64,000 nucleotides of DNA from Pseudomonas sp. BN411. Its GTDB lineage: Bacteria; Pseudomonadota; Gammaproteobacteria; Pseudomonadales; Pseudomonadaceae. Below are positions 42,637 through 57,034 of the stretch, piece after piece. Positions within the stretch are counted from its first letter, which is position 1. The number at the start of each line of letters is the position of its first letter. The notes beneath the pieces are model-generated. The model did not search any database. It was not told the origin of the DNA and saw nothing but the letters and a program-made list of their open reading frames with translations. The stretch lies in the NCBI RefSeq assembly GCF_029871235.1, contig NZ_SSOM01000074.1:142161-206160 (forward strand). Direction: 5' to 3'. The translations under genes were made by a program, and so were the position numbers.

Positions 42637-44325
42637 TTACAGCTTGCGCAGCGGCGCGCCACGCACCGGCTTGTCGCCGGCCACGTAGTAGCTGGTGGTG
42701 CTGCGCGGCAGCGGTTTGCGGTTGCGGATCTTATCGGCGATTTTCTCGGCGATCATGATGGTGGTCGCGTTGAGGTTGCCGGTGATGATCTCCGGCATGA
42801 TCGACGCGTCCACCACTCGCAGGCCTTCCATGCCGTGCACGCGGCCCTGGCCATCTACCACCGCCATGTCGTCGGTGCCCATCTTGCAGGAGCAGGACGG
42901 GTGGAAGGCGGTTTCCGCATGGGTACGGATGAACTCGTCCAGCTCGGCGTCGCTCTTGAGGTTCGCGCCCGGGCTCAGCTCGCGGCCGCGGTACGGGTCC
43001 AGCGCCGGCTGGCCCATGATTTCGCGGGTGATGCGGATGCCGTCGCGGAATTCCTGCCAGTCCTGTTCGTGGGACATGTAGTTGAACAGGATGCTCGGGT
43101 GCTTGCGCGGGTCCTTCGATTTCACGTGGATACGGCCACGGCTCAGCGAACGCATGGAGCCCATGTGGGCCTGGAAGCCGTGTTCCTTCACCGCGTTGCT
43201 GCCGTTGTAGTTGATCGCCACCGGCAGGAAGTGGAACTGGATGTTCGGCCACTCGAACTGCTCGCGGGTGCGGATGAAGCCGCCGGCCTCGAACTGGTTG
43301 CTGGCGCCGAGCCCGGTGCCGAGGAACAGCCACTCGGCACCGATGGCCGGCTGGTTCCACCATTGCAGGGCGGGGAACAGGGACACCGGCTCCTTGCAGG
43401 CGTACTGCAGGTAGAGCTCCAGGTGGTCCTGCAGGTTGGCGCCCACGCCCGGCAGGTCGTGCACCACCGGTACGTCGAGGTCGCGCAGCAGGGCGGCCGG
43501 GCCTACGCCGGAGCGCTGCAGCAGTTGCGGCGAGGCGATGGCGCCGCTGCACACCAGGACTTCACGACGGGCACGGACGGTGATGGGGTTGTCGTTGTTG
43601 CCCTGCAGGTAGGCAACACCGGTGGCCCGCTTGCCGCTGAACAGGATGCGGTCGGTCAGGGCGTGGGTGACGATGGTCAGGTTGGGGCGGCTGCGTGCCT
43701 GGTCCAGGTAGCCGCGACCGGTGGCGGCACGCCGGCCTTCCGGGGTCACGGTGCGGTCCATGGGACCGAAGCCTTCCTGCTGGTAGCCGTTGAGGTCTTC
43801 GGTACGGGGGAAACCAGCCTGCACGCCGGCTTCGACCATGGCGTGGAACAGCGGGTTGTTGCCGGCCTTGGGCGTGGTCACGCTCACCGGGCCTTCGCCG
43901 CCGTGGAAGTCGTTCGGGCCGATGTCGCGGGTTTCCGCCTTGCGGAAATAGGGCAGGCAGTCCAGGTAGGTCCAGTCTTCCAGGCCCGGCATCTTAGCCC
44001 AGCCGTCGAAGTCCAGCGCGTTGCCGCGGATGTAGCACATGCCGTTGATCAGCGAGGAGCCACCCAGGCCCTTGCCACGGCCGCACTCCATGCGGCGGTT
44101 GTTCATGAAGGGCTCGGGATCGGTCTCGTAGGCCCAGTTGTAGCGGCGGCCCTGCAGCGGATAGGCGAGGGCGGCGGGCATCTGGGTACGGAAATCCATG
44201 CGGTAGTCCGGGCCGCCGGCTTCCAGCAGCAGGACGCTGACATCGGAATCTTCGGTCAGGCGGGTGGCCAGCACGTTACCGGCCGAACCGGCTCCGACGA
44301 TGATGTAATCGAATTCTTGGGACAT
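42637..44325 (-). CDS. betA: Choline dehydrogenase
   Basis: This 562-residue GMC flavoprotein oxidises choline to betaine aldehyde (and on to betaine) at the membrane. FAD site [18 protein letters not shown] (about 6-23), GMC signature [13 protein letters not shown], second signature [20 protein letters not shown], and the active-site histidine region HPSCSCKMG...[28 protein letters not shown] are visible. It is the last gene of the betIBA operon, 102 bp after betB. AGGT upstream of the ATG at 44325. Confidence 0.97.
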
Positions 44326-44427: not shown

Positions 44428-45900
44428 TCAGAACACCGAGTAGTAGTCGCCCATCTCGACCTGTACGGACTTGATGCGGGTGTAGTGGGCCAGGGTGGTC
44501 AGGCCGTTCTCGCGGCCGACGCCGGACTGCTTGTAGCCGCCCACCGGCATTTCGGCGGGGGACTCGCCCCAGGTGTTGATCCAGCAGATACCGGCTTCCA
44601 GCTTGTGGATCACGCGGTGGGCGCGGGCCAGGTCGCGGGTGACGACGCCGGCGGCCAGGCCGTACTCGGTATCGTTGGCGCGGCGGATGACTTCTTCTTC
44701 GGTGTCGTACACCAGGATGCTCATCACCGGGCCGAAGATTTCTTCGCGGACGATGGTCATGTCGTCGGTGCAGTCGCTGAATACGGTTGCGGCCACGTAG
44801 GCGCCTTTGGCGTATTCACCGTCGGTGACGCGCTCGCCGCCGATCAGCAGGCGGGCGCCTTCCTTGCGGCCGGCTTCGATGTAGCCGAGCACGCTTTCCA
44901 TGTGGGCGAAGCTGGTCAGCGGGCCGAAGTTGGTGTTGGCGTCTTCCGGGTTGCCCAGGCGGATGCGCTTGACGCGCTCGATCACCTTGTCTTCGAAGCG
45001 GGCCTGCAGGGCGCGCGGTACGAACACGCGGGTGCCGTTGGTGCAGACCTGGCCGGAGCTGAAGAAGTTGGCCATGACGGCGATGTCGGCGGCGCGGTCG
45101 AGATCGGCGTCTTCGAAAATGATCAGCGGCGACTTGCCGCCCAGTTCCATGGTCACTTCCTTCAGCGAGGAGCTGGAGGCGCTGGCCATCACTTTCTTGC
45201 CGGTGGAGGTGCCGCCGGTGAAGGAAATCTTCTCGATCAGCGGGTGTTCGGTCAGCCACTGACCAACTTCACGGCCGCTGCCGGTGAGGACGTTGAACAC
45301 GCCGTCCGGTACGCCGGCTTCGGTGTAGATCTCGGCCAGTTTCAGGGCAGTCAGCGGGGTGACTTCGCTGGGCTTGAAGATCATCGCGTTGCCGGCGGCC
45401 AGGGCCGGGGCGGATTTCCACATGGCGATCTGCACCGGGTAGTTCCAGGCGCCGATACCGGCGACCACGCCCAGGGGCTCGCGGCGGGTGTAGACGAAGC
45501 TGGTTTCGCGCAGCGGGATCTGCTCGCCTTCGATGGCGGGGATCAGGCCGGCGTAGTACTCGATCACGTCGGCGCCGGTGACGATGTCCACGGCTTTGGT
45601 TTCGGCCAGCGGCTTGCCGGTGTCCAGGGTTTCCAGTGCGGCCAGCTCGTCGTTGCGCTCACGGAGGATATCCACGGCGCGACGCAGGATGCGCGAACGC
45701 TGCATGGCGGTCATCGCGGCCCAGACTTTCTGGCCTTCGACGGCAGCGGCGACGGCACGCTCGACGTCGTCCTTGCTGGCGCGCTGGACGTTGGCCAGGA
45801 CGTCACCAGTGGCCGGGTTGACGGTCTCGAAGGTGGCGCCGCTGGTAGCGTCGACGTAGCGACCGCCAATGTAGAGCTTCTGTTCTTCGAATCGGGCCAT
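44428..45900 (-). CDS. betB: Betaine aldehyde dehydrogenase
   Basis: BetB (490 residues) oxidises betaine aldehyde to glycine betaine with NAD(P). Aldehyde dehydrogenase landmarks: [43 protein letters not shown], the catalytic glutamate in MELGGKSPL, the catalytic cysteine in [14 protein letters not shown], and [13 protein letters not shown]. The start at 45900 ([13 protein letters not shown]) matches family length; longer frames run into the betI stop. It begins 47 bp after betI. Confidence 0.97.
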
Positions 45901-45947
45901 GGTGGTTGTCCTCTCTAGGTCTTGTGTTCGCAAGGCTGCCGGGCGGT

Positions 45948-46541
45948 TCACGCCGCCTGCTTGGCCAGTTGTTGATCAAGGAATTCGTAGGCGAGCAGGC
46001 GGGCCTGCTCGGTTTCGAAGGCTTCGCCGGAGAGCGCGCCGCGCAGCCAGAGGCCGTCGATCAGGGCGGCCAGGCCGCGTGCGGCGGTACGTGCGCTTTC
46101 CACATCGAGCTCGCGGCGGAACTGCCAGCAGAGGTTCGAGTACAGGCGCAGGTCGTTGATGCGCTGCAAACGGCGCAGGGACGGCTGGTGCATGCTGCTG
46201 GCCCAGAACGCCAGCCAGGTCTTCATGGCCGGGCCGTTGACCTGGGTCTCGTCGAAGTTGCCGTCGATGATGGAGCGGATGTAGCCACGCGCACTGTCGT
46301 CGCGCATGGTCTCGCGGCGCTTGCGCACCGCGTCCTGCAGATCGTTCATGAGGAAGCGCATGGTGGCTTCCAGCAGGCCGTTCTTGTCCTGGAAGTAGTG
46401 GCTGATGATGCCGTTGGAAACCCCGGCGAGCCGCGCAATGTAGGAAATGCTGGCGTCGCCCATGCCAACCTGGTCCACCGCCTCGAGCGTGGCGTGGATC
46501 AGCTGGGTGCGCCGCAGGGGCTGCATTCCGACTTTTGGCAT
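45948..46541 (-). CDS. betI: TetR-family choline-responsive repressor BetI
   Basis: BetI (197 residues) represses bet genes until choline is present. It has an N-terminal TetR HTH ([41 protein letters not shown]) and a ligand domain ([46 protein letters not shown]). GGAGGAA precedes the ATG at 46541. It heads betI-betB-betA and is divergent from betT; a dyad operator lies 59 bp upstream. A close paralogue lies on the other side of betT. Confidence 0.95.
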
Positions 46542-46599: not shown

Positions 46600-46615
46600 T
46601 TGATTGATCGTTCAA
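46600..46615. promoter_or_regulatory. BetI-type operator in the betI/betT divergent promoter
   Basis: The dyad TTGATTGATCGTTCAA (minus strand TTGAACGATCAATCAA) lies in the gap between betI and betT. A plausible betI promoter on the minus strand, TTGTTT-N16-TAAAGT, spans it. The core TTGAACGATCAAT recurs upstream of gbdR and, with one change, upstream of the second betI. Confidence 0.7.
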
Positions 46616-46774
46616 ACAACAAAGAATACGATGCGCACCATGGAACGGGATGCGGCAGTTCGCCGCACCTGATTTCAGGCCTTCTGCCGGCGAAAACCAC
46701 CCGTCGCCGGCCGCTGGCGCGGGTCTGTCGTTGCGTCCATGAGGCGCCTGCTTTCACTGCCCTGGTATTTCCAA

Positions 46775-48373
46775 ATGAGTAAAGCTCCAACAACAACAAA
46801 CCATGGGAAGGTGCGTCTGAATCCGGTCGTGTTCTACGGATCCACCGCGCTCATCATGCTTCTCACGGTTGCCTTGATTGCGTTCCCGGAAGGCGCCGGC
46901 AGTGTGCTCGGCAAGGCCCAGGCCTGGCTGTCGCGCAGCTTCGGCTGGTACTACATGCTGGCTATCGGCGCGTACCTGTTCTTCGTCCTCTATGTCGCCT
47001 TCTCCCGCTACGGCAATCTGCGCCTGGGCGCCGACGACAGCCGTCCGGACTTCAGCTACGGCGCCTGGGCCGGCATGCTGTTTTCCTCGGGCATCGGCAT
47101 TTCGCTGCTGTACTTCGCGGCGTCCGAGCCCATCGACCATCTCTACAACCCGCCGGAAGGCGAGCCGGGCAGCCAGTCCGCCGCGCGCCAGGCATTGCAA
47201 CTGACCTTCCTCCACTGGGGTGTGCATGGCTGGGCCATCTACGCGCTGGTGGGCCTGGCGGTGGGCTACTTCGCCTATCGTCATAACAAGCCGCTGGCGC
47301 TGCGTTCGGCGCTCTACCCGCTGTTCGGCGAACGCCGGATGAAAGGTTCGGTGGGTAACGCGGTGGACTGCTTCGGCATCTTCGTGACCCTGCTGGGCCT
47401 GGTGACCAACCTCGGTATCGGCTCGCTGCAGGTGTCTTCCGGTCTGGAATACCTGTTCGGCCTGCCCCACAGCCAAGGTGCGCTGCTGGCGGTGATCCTG
47501 GTGATGAGCGCGGTGGCCACCCTGGCCGCGGTGTCGGGTATCGAGAAGGGCATCCGCCGCCTGTCGAACCTGAACATCATCCTATTCAGCGGCCTGCTGG
47601 TATTCGTGCTGCTGGCCGGCCAGACCCTGCACCTGCTCAACGGCTTCGTGCAGAACCTGGGTGACTACCTCAACGGCCTGGTGCTGAAGACCTTCGACCT
47701 CTACGTCTACACCGGCCAGTCCGGCAAGAGCGAAGAGTGGATGGGCCTGTGGACCCTGTTCTACTGGGCCTGGTGGATTTCCTGGGCGCCCTTCGTCGGC
47801 ATGTTCGTGGCCCGTATCTCCCGTGGCCGCACTGTGCGCGAACTGGTCAGCGGCGTGCTGCTGATTCCGCTGGGCTTCACCCTGGCCTGGCTGTCGGTGT
47901 TCGGCAACAGCGCCATCGACCTGGTGATGAACCAGAACGCGGCGGATCTCGGCAAGGCGGCGCTGGAGCAGCCGGCCATGTCCATCTACCTGCTGCTGGA
48001 GCATTACCCCTGGGCCAAGGCGGTGATCGGCCTGTCGATCTGCGTCGGCTTCGTGCTCTTCCTCACCCCGGCCGACTCCGGCTCGGTGATGCTGGCCAAC
48101 CTGTCCCGCGAGGAAGGCGACCTGGACGAAGACGCGCCGAACTGGCTGCGTATCTTCTGGTCCGTGGTGGTGACCCTGGCGACCATCGGCCTGCTGTTCG
48201 CCGGCAACTTCACCGCGATGCAGACGGTGGTGGTGCTGGCTGGCCTGCCGTTCTCGGTGGTGCTGCTGCTGTATATGTTCGCCCTGCTCAAGCAGATGAA
48301 GGCGGATGTGGCGGCGATGGAGCATGCGCCGAAGCCGGCGAAAGTCGTCCAGCTGCGAGGCGAAGCGGCCTGA
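46775..48373 (+). CDS. betT: BCCT family choline transporter BetT
   Basis: This 532-residue choline/betaine carrier has about 12 membrane helices. BCCT hallmarks are GAWAGMLFSSGIGISLLYFAASEP near helix 4 (with the GxGxGxx stretch modified) and the helix 8 tryptophan box TLFYWAWWISWAPFVGMFVARISRGR. The C-terminal cytoplasmic tail is short (about 30 residues), unlike the long osmosensing tail of E. coli BetT, which suggests uptake for catabolism. The start at 46775 begins the protein MSKAPTTTNHGK; the upstream ribosome site is weak. Terminator follows. Confidence 0.93.
   Translation: MSKAPTTTNHGKVRLNPVVFYGSTALIMLLTVALIAFPEGAGSVLGKAQAWLSRSFGWYYMLAIGAYLFFVLYVAFSRYGNLRLGADDSRPDFSYGAWAGMLFSSGIGISLLYFAASEPIDHLYNPPEGEPGSQSAARQALQLTFLHWGVHGWAIYALVGLAVGYFAYRHNKPLALRSALYPLFGERRMKGSVGNAVDCFGIFVTLLGLVTNLGIGSLQVSSGLEYLFGLPHSQGALLAVILVMSAVATLAAVSGIEKGIRRLSNLNIILFSGLLVFVLLAGQTLHLLNGFVQNLGDYLNGLVLKTFDLYVYTGQSGKSEEWMGLWTLFYWAWWISWAPFVGMFVARISRGRTVRELVSGVLLIPLGFTLAWLSVFGNSAIDLVMNQNAADLGKAALEQPAMSIYLLLEHYPWAKAVIGLSICVGFVLFLTPADSGSVMLANLSREEGDLDEDAPNWLRIFWSVVVTLATIGLLFAGNFTAMQTVVVLAGLPFSVVLLLYMFALLKQMKADVAAMEHAPKPAKVVQLRGEAA
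46789..46800 (+). promoter_or_regulatory. Hfq/Crc-type A-rich motif at the betT start
   Basis: AACAACAACAAA lies 14-25 bases into the betT coding sequence. It fits the AANAANAA pattern bound by Hfq-Crc in Pseudomonas catabolite repression of translation, and such sites usually lie close to the start codon. Confidence 0.55.
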
Positions 48374-48541: not shown

Positions 48542-49137
48542 TTGGAGTCTTCGGCCTTGGCCAGCTGCTGATCAAGATACTCGTAAGCGATGTGCAGCGC
48601 CTGCTCGATATTGAAGGCGTCGCCCGAGAGGGCGCCGCGCAGCCACAGGCCATCGATCAGCGCGGCCAGGCCTCGGGCAGCGGAGCGCGCCTGATCCACG
48701 GGCATGGCACGGCGCAGTTCGCAGCAGAGGTTGGAATACAGGCGGTGATCGTTGATCCGCTGCAGGCGGCGCAGGGACGGCTGGTGCATGCTGGCAGCCC
48801 AGAAGGCCAGCCAGGTTTTCATTGCCGGGCCGCTGACCTGGCTGTCGTCGAAGTTGCCGGCGACTATGGCCCGCAAGTGTTCGCGCGGGGTGTCGTCGTG
48901 CAAGGTGGAGCGACGCTGGCGCACGGCACCGCTGAGGGCGGCCATCAAGTGGCGCATCGTGGCTTCCAGCAGGCCGTTCTTGTCTTGGAAGTAATGGCTG
49001 ATGATGCCGTTGGAGACCCCGGCAACACGGGCGATATAGGCGATGCTGGCATCGCTGAGGCCTACCTGGTCGACAGCTTCGAGGGTGGCCTGGATCAACT
49101 GCGAGCGGCGGATCGGCTGCATTCCGACCTTGGGCAT
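48457..49137 (-). CDS. Second BetI-like TetR repressor with REPIN-encoded C terminus
   Basis: This 226-residue paralogue of BetI aligns without gaps over about 197 residues and by eye is roughly three-quarters identical (same MPKVGMQP start, [22 protein letters not shown] and [14 protein letters not shown]). After the shared YLDQQLAK it continues with about 30 extra residues, of which the last 28 ([16 protein letters not shown]...) are encoded entirely by REPIN D. The original stop was probably lost when the REPIN inserted. A 16-bp palindrome lies upstream, so it likely also regulates itself. Confidence 0.9.
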
Positions 49138-49193
49138 CGGGTATTTCCACCATTTTGTGCGGGAATTGGGAGCGCGCAGTCTAGGGGGAAATT

Positions 49194-49209
49194 GATTGAT
49201 CGATCAATC
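49194..49209 (-). promoter_or_regulatory. Palindromic operator upstream of the second betI
   Basis: GATTGATCGATCAATC, a perfect 16-bp palindrome, lies 57 bp upstream of the second betI ATG. It shares the GATCAAT core of the betI/betT and gbdR sites. Position matches the operator of the first betI (59 bp upstream). Confidence 0.7.
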
Positions 49210-49251
49210 GATGGGATTGATCAAGGTGCATCGGCGGCAGGGGAATGCTTT

Positions 49252-56644: not shown

Positions 56645-56906
56645 TCTCGACCATGGGCGGCCGCCGCCGCCCAATGCTGGTGCACGATGCGGCGGGGCGG
56701 TTATGACCGGGCGGTCCGGTTATGAATATTCCGTCTGTTACTGAAGGTGTTGTCCTATAGCACGGGGTGACATTCGCTGACACCGCCAGTGCTACCTAAG
56801 TCCCCAGGGCCCGCCGGATGCGGGCTCTCGCGGTCGTAAACAGAATGATTCTGTCGCTGGCGCCTAGGCCGAATGGCACGGGCCTTGGAAGAATCCACTG
56901 TTTTTA

Positions 56907-56920
56907 ATTGAACGATCAAT
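56907..56920 (+). promoter_or_regulatory. BetI-type box upstream of gbdR
   Basis: ATTGAACGATCAAT lies 115 bp upstream of the gbdR ATG in a 390-bp gap. The 13-base core TTGAACGATCAAT is identical to the betI/betT operator read on the minus strand, and the flanks are similarly A-rich. The rest of the gap has a GCCTC/GAGGC hairpin (56989-57003) preceded by an A-rich AACAAAAAA stretch, and no gene. Confidence 0.65.
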
Positions 56921-57034
56921 AAAACTAGGCACGACCTTTGCCTAGATTTGGTATTCCCTGGTTTTGAAGACCAGGCCATAACAAAAAAGCCTCTAAACGA
57001 GGCTCCGCTCCGTGCCTAGCTGAGGGTTTCGCTG

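Follow-up and report, generated by a model that had tools for sequence, protein, structure and literature searches.

A predicted BetI operator adjoining the sigma54 promoter of gbdR in a Pseudomonas with two BetI paralogs

The bet/gbdR cluster and its shared dyad

We analyzed a 64,000-nucleotide stretch of DNA from Pseudomonas sp. BN411 (referred to here as the window), which carries the bet genes and gbdR together with the predicted regulatory elements collected in Table 1. betI-1 adjoins betB and betA. betI-2 has betT on one side and the choline ABC transporter genes on the other; parts of a choline-type ABC transporter were recognized by family search. Both BetI-1 and BetI-2 scored above the TIGR03384 cut-off of 201.3 bits. 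An alternative reading of betI-2 as the open reading frame at 48572-49153 on the minus strand was rejected, as it is in the wrong frame and has no family match. Elsewhere, a gene for a BetI-like TetR protein is found at L088:1480-2097 (G000:C51), with a score of 194.5 bits, just below the BetI cut-off; its neighbor presumably encodes an amidase-like protein.

Table 1. Genes and predicted regulatory elements of the bet/gbdR cluster, in window coordinates
Feature	Position	Strand	Family match or sequence
betA, choline dehydrogenase	42637..44325	-	
betB, betaine-aldehyde dehydrogenase	44428..45951	-	
betI-1, TetR-family BetI repressor, 197 aa	45948..46541	-	TIGR03384.1, 239.3-239.9 bits, cut-off 201.3; PF13977, PF00440
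Predicted BetI operator betI-1/betT, register 1	46600..46615	-	TTGAACGATCAATCAA (minus strand), 0 mismatch
Predicted BetI operator betI-1/betT, register 2	46604..46619	-	1 mismatch
BCCT-family transporter, betT-like	46739..48373	+	TIGR00842, over cut-off; BetT subfamily model, 602.9 bits, under cut-off 695
betI-2, second BetI, 226 aa	48457..49137	-	TIGR03384, 257 bits (own-genome search); PF13977, PF00440
Predicted BetI operator betI-2, register 1	49192..49207	-	0 mismatch
Predicted BetI operator betI-2, register 2	49196..49211	-	1 mismatch
BetI-type dyad at gbdR, register 2	56904..56919	+	TTAATTGAACGATCAA, 1 mismatch; 4 bp from register 1
BetI-type dyad at gbdR, register 1	56908..56923	+	TTGAACGATCAATAAA, 1 mismatch to TTGAWYGNNCRWTCAA; holds the 13-mer
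sigma54 promoter -24/-12 element of gbdR	56928..56941	+	GGCACGACCTTTGC; GG-N10-GC within GGCRY-N5-TTGC
gbdR, AraC-family activator of betaine catabolism, 367 aa	57035..58138	+	NF052371.1, 654.8 bits, cut-off 480

The 13-mer TTGAACGATCAAT occurs upstream of gbdR at 56908-56920 on the plus strand, and a second exact copy is present at 46603-46615 on the minus strand, between betI-1 and betT. This confirms the 13-base identity between the gbdR region and the betI/betT operator reported in the preliminary description, whose range, 56907-56920, began one base early. When the comparison was extended to the 20-mers TTAATTGAACGATCAATAAA (gbdR) and TTGTTTGAACGATCAATCAA (betI-1, minus strand), 17 of 20 positions were identical. 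A scan of the whole 6.37-Mb genome found the exact 13-mer at these two places. With one mismatch allowed, the genome yielded five rows, made up of the two exact copies, the betI-2 site, counted on both strands owing to its self-complementarity, and C20:79447; the reversed control gave two rows. Within the window, a search allowing up to two mismatches gave five matches at three loci, two of which matched in both orientations, compared to 0.50 expected, and none of 100 window shuffles reached five.

The 13-mer belongs to a longer element, the 16-bp dyad TTGAWYG-NN-CRWTCAA, which is present at betI-1/betT, betI-2, and gbdR, in each case in two registers 4 bp apart. The gbdR dyad departs from TTGAWYGNNCRWTCAA at a single position in each of its two registers and hence fits the consensus of betI promoters in this lineage. 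Allowing one mismatch, we found the dyad at seven loci in the 6.37-Mb genome (three in the bet/gbdR cluster and four elsewhere, one of the latter a perfect match on C40), and a reversed control of the pattern at three places. Both overlapping registers were present only at betI-1, betI-2, and gbdR among the seven loci. The perfect dyad on C40, TTGAACGACCGATCAA, lies at L096:1501-1516 (G000:C40:214157-214172), at the 3' end of a gene for a BetI-like TetR protein, and the gene downstream of it is one that we take to encode an OmpR-type response regulator. This dyad may be a chance occurrence.

We then considered the upstream regions of betI in other Pseudomonas. Fifty-one such regions were drawn from 80 GbdR loci, the other 29 loci having no betI match on the stretch compared. 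The dyad was present with at most one mismatch in 48 of the 51 regions and with two mismatches in another two (L028 and L031); at L020, no dyad with two or fewer mismatches was found upstream of betI. In 23 of the 51 regions the dyad is contained in a perfect 20-bp palindrome, TTGATTGAACGTTCAATCAA, which consists of two dyads overlapping with a 4-bp offset. The 13-mer is thus best read as part of a 20-bp operator, and the likely functional unit is the 16- to 20-bp dyad rather than the 13-mer.

Among genomes of the same GTDB genus, TTGAACGATCAAT itself was found in 7 of 18 gbdR sites (18 genomes) and in 6 of 13 betI-1 sites, a count that leaves out G013. It was present at both sites in two of 13 genomes (G000 and G003), with the dyad retained. 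Since the same 13-mer stands at both sites in so few genomes, agreement in excess of the dyad consensus is in part fortuitous. Selection on the exact 13-mer was rejected, as the sites drift within the dyad consensus.

The gbdR promoter and conservation of its upstream dyad

The sigma54 promoter element of gbdR, GGCACGACCTTTGC, begins 20 bases past the start of the 13-mer, which places the dyad directly upstream of this promoter. The abutting promoter went unmentioned in the preliminary description. A sigma54 element was present in all 80 gbdR upstream regions that we compared (79 loci plus the window; L073, with 61 bp of upstream sequence only, was left out). Promoter geometry puts the probable start site of gbdR near 56953, so that the operator would span about -49 to -30.

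To locate the dyad in these regions, we employed a position weight matrix (PWM) derived from 19 distinct 16-mers of betI promoters outside the window and scanned 450 bp upstream. In all 80 gbdR regions, which are non-independent trials because the species are related, the best match preceded the sigma54 GG by 20, 21, or 24 bp (49, 28, and 3 rows, respectively). In 79 of the 80 regions, the anchored score was reached by no more than 10 of 200 base shuffles. The weakest sites were those of L072 and L074, both with a score of 8.8, which 8 and 14 of 200 shuffles reached; other weak sites were those of L077 (score of 12.4, 7 of 200 shuffles) and L042 (score of 10.0, 4 of 200 shuffles). In the window, the top six scores corresponded to the three operators in their two registers, ranging from 21.9 to 28.8, and the next score was 8.6. 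The best match was at -20 or -24 in 18 of 18 genomes of the genus set, which overlaps with the 80 regions.

The consensus that picked the training sites of this matrix had been composed after the gbdR sites were known. We therefore built a second PWM from only the most self-complementary 20-mers of betI promoters; it comprised five training sequences, one of which, AAGCGGGCTGCGGCCCGCTT, is an unrelated palindrome. The best match to the second PWM started at -25 to -20 in 77 of the 80 gbdR regions and was distant from the promoter in the other three. A best score of at least 10 was obtained in 75 of the 80 gbdR regions, compared to 24 of 1,027 control windows. Moreover, the site is symmetric: mean dyad complementarity was 5.86 of 8 pairs at the site, compared to 2.05 averaged over other offsets. 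In some clades both arms vary together, TTGAATG..CATTCAA being replaced by TTGAACG..CGTTCAA, as expected for binding by a symmetric dimer. The genome scan and the comparison with gbdR upstream regions of other Pseudomonas, both proposed in the preliminary description, support its reading, as the motif is rare in the genome and the spacing between dyad and promoter is conserved.

Other elements were noted in the gbdR upstream region. A second sigma54-like element, TGGCACGGGCCTTGG, lies at 56873-56889, and the gbdR promoter element follows approximately 53 bp downstream. The sigma54-like element has GG in place of GC at -12 and is recognizable in several related loci, such as L006 to L009. The putative gbdR leader contains two hairpins (56957-57004), whose fold is weakly better than that of shuffled sequences (z = -1.73; 13 of 200 shuffles folded equally well). 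A PvrA-type CGGTCA is present at 56704-56709 on the minus strand, and PvrA has been described in a 2026 paper to bind and repress the gbdR promoter (PMC13415123).

BetI as the predicted repressor of gbdR

Rarity, dyad symmetry, and conservation at a fixed distance strongly support a BetI operator at gbdR. We consider it very probable that the site is such an operator set against the sigma54 promoter of gbdR, at which repression released by choline licenses GbdR synthesis. This agrees with what has been reported for P. aeruginosa, in which gbdR is controlled by sigma54, NtrC/CbrB, IHF, and BetI (Sanchez et al. 2017, Microbiology 163:1343) and BetI represses gbdR in the absence of choline (review, PMC10418997, section 2.3.3). 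The link between BetI and gbdR put forward in the preliminary description is therefore well supported, both by the sequence evidence and by the P. aeruginosa literature. It is known in substance, and the joining of the choline and betaine circuits was already published for that species. What the present data add is an independent comparative test, according to which many Pseudomonas would couple choline sensing to betaine sensing at a sigma54 promoter, with the operator placed 20 to 24 bp before the -24 element.

According to our model, one BetI dimer, or a pair of dimers if both overlapping registers are used, would occupy about -49 to -30 when choline is absent. Bound next to the -24 element, BetI would keep sigma54-RNA polymerase from loading or the activator (NtrC or CbrB) from making contact. 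Choline would bind BetI and free the site, and gbdR would be expressed. GbdR, which senses betaine and dimethylglycine in P. aeruginosa (PMC10418997), would then require one of these ligands to activate the downstream catabolic genes. Because choline would free gbdR and GbdR would then need betaine or dimethylglycine, choline would license the protein that senses the product of its own breakdown. That BetI-1 or BetI-2 binds here in the present organism is predicted from the sequence, and the mode of repression is presumably steric, with either protein a candidate for the repressor that acts in this species.

The locus resembles its P. aeruginosa counterpart, in which the orthologous gbdR has a sigma54 promoter and is repressed by BetI without choline (PMC10418997). 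In P. aeruginosa PA7 (L046), the dyad TTGAACGCCCAATCAA stands 20 bp before the sigma54 GG, the same spacing as at the present gbdR. Unlike PA7, for which one BetI was found on the 21 kb searched, the window encodes two BetI paralogs above the cut-off, and the present gbdR site has two overlapping registers with one mismatch each. The E. coli BetI also regulates its bet cluster and binds DNA in a choline-responsive manner (PMC12442346).

The alternative that fares best is that the element belongs to the sigma54 promoter itself or is an AT-rich upstream or IHF-type element, its likeness to the betI operator being secondary. The site does abut the -24 element at a fixed spacing, T is conserved ahead of it (98% of the 80 gbdR rows at column -24 and 95% at column -23), and the P. 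aeruginosa study has IHF in its title (Sanchez et al. 2017). However, symmetry is centered on the site itself and its arms co-vary, and a matrix trained on betI promoters finds it in every gbdR region. Moreover, no match to an IHF consensus with one or fewer mismatches was found in 56645-57034. We therefore regard this explanation as very improbable. Matches to NtrC/CbrB-type consensus motifs in the same interval were at noise level, so that motif scanning did not confirm the published IHF and NtrC/CbrB inputs.

A slightly less probable alternative is that gbdR is bound by another member of the TetR family that recognizes a similar motif, for example the BetI-like protein of C51 or that of C40. 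Genes for such proteins exist (194.5 and 105.6 bits to TIGR03384, respectively), and the C40 gene is adjoined by a perfect dyad. Conversely, both proteins are below the BetI cut-off, within the bet cluster it is betI-1 and betI-2 themselves that have perfect dyads upstream, and the regulator reported to control gbdR in P. aeruginosa is BetI (PMC10418997). Finally, that the 13-base match between two promoters of the same pathway arose by chance is hardly credible: exact identity in two of 13 genus genomes leaves room for some luck, but the 13-mer has two exact places in 6.37 Mb, and the dyad keeps its spacing in all 80 gbdR regions with the first PWM and in 77 with the second.

Two BetI paralogs and the predicted gbdR operator

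The two BetI proteins of the window, whose genes flank betT, are 77% identical. Two proteins above the BetI cut-off were found in 14 of the 18 genomes of the GTDB genus (including that of the window) and one in the other four; in the two-BetI genomes, the paired genes are 2.5 to 3.0 kb apart. Averaged over 13 pairs, BetI-1 and BetI-2 are 86.9% identical across alignment columns 1 to 65 and 97.8% identical across the recognition region (columns 39 to 62), compared to 70.6% across columns 66 to 195. By sequence comparison, the paralogs thus combine nearly identical recognition helices with diverged ligand domains. Since the recognition helices are nearly identical, the two repressors may share the gbdR operator, and both BetIs should read the same operators, that of gbdR included.

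To compare the two copies with other BetIs, we employed 21 diagnostic positions that differ between the BetI-1 and BetI-2 groups, with a uniformity of at least 90% within each group. At 13 of these positions, the BetIs of the four single-BetI genomes in the genus match BetI-2; they match BetI-1 at five and neither at three. For a consensus sequence made from 50 BetIs of other loci, the corresponding numbers are nine (BetI-2), five (BetI-1), and seven (neither). As other BetIs agree more often with BetI-2, the copy beside betBA, BetI-1, seems to have diverged further, although not sharply so. A BetI tree, from which L023 was left out as too short, had poor resolution at depth and a very long outgroup branch; its nodes are too poorly supported for the split to be dated.

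The scores of the gbdR operators ranged from 12.6 to 16.5 in the single-BetI genomes (G004, G008, G009, and G017) and from 16.5 to 26.8 in the 14 two-BetI genomes. A relation between a second BetI and a stronger gbdR operator was nevertheless dropped, as the single-BetI genomes are few and related and one-BetI loci elsewhere, on the stretch compared, reach scores of up to 25.4 (L025).

We tentatively propose, as a possibility we hold somewhat less likely than its opposite, that in this P. resinovorans-like genus the two BetI paralogs, alike in the helix that reads DNA but with diverged ligand domains, compete for the gbdR operator or heterodimerize on it. If so, gbdR would be gated by two repressors instead of one choline switch, these repressors might differ in ligand affinity or in their response to osmotic conditions, and the double-register operator would accommodate two dimers. 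The two-BetI lineage offers a natural case in which to study how duplicated repressors share operators.

In a literature search for two BetIs or a BetI box in Pseudomonas, with most subscription papers outside its scope, the sole relevant match was a study of Alphaproteobacteria (PMC12442346). It describes two BetI repressors in a single bet cluster of Ruegeria pomeroyi DSS-3, with overlapping palindromes at the betI/betT divergon, an arrangement like the present one; gbdR is not described in the part of that study considered here. The two Ruegeria proteins are 33.5% identical and bind different boxes (PMC12442346). In contrast, the BetIs of the window, at 77% identity, have nearly the same recognition helix, and the betI-1, betI-2, and gbdR sites share one consensus.
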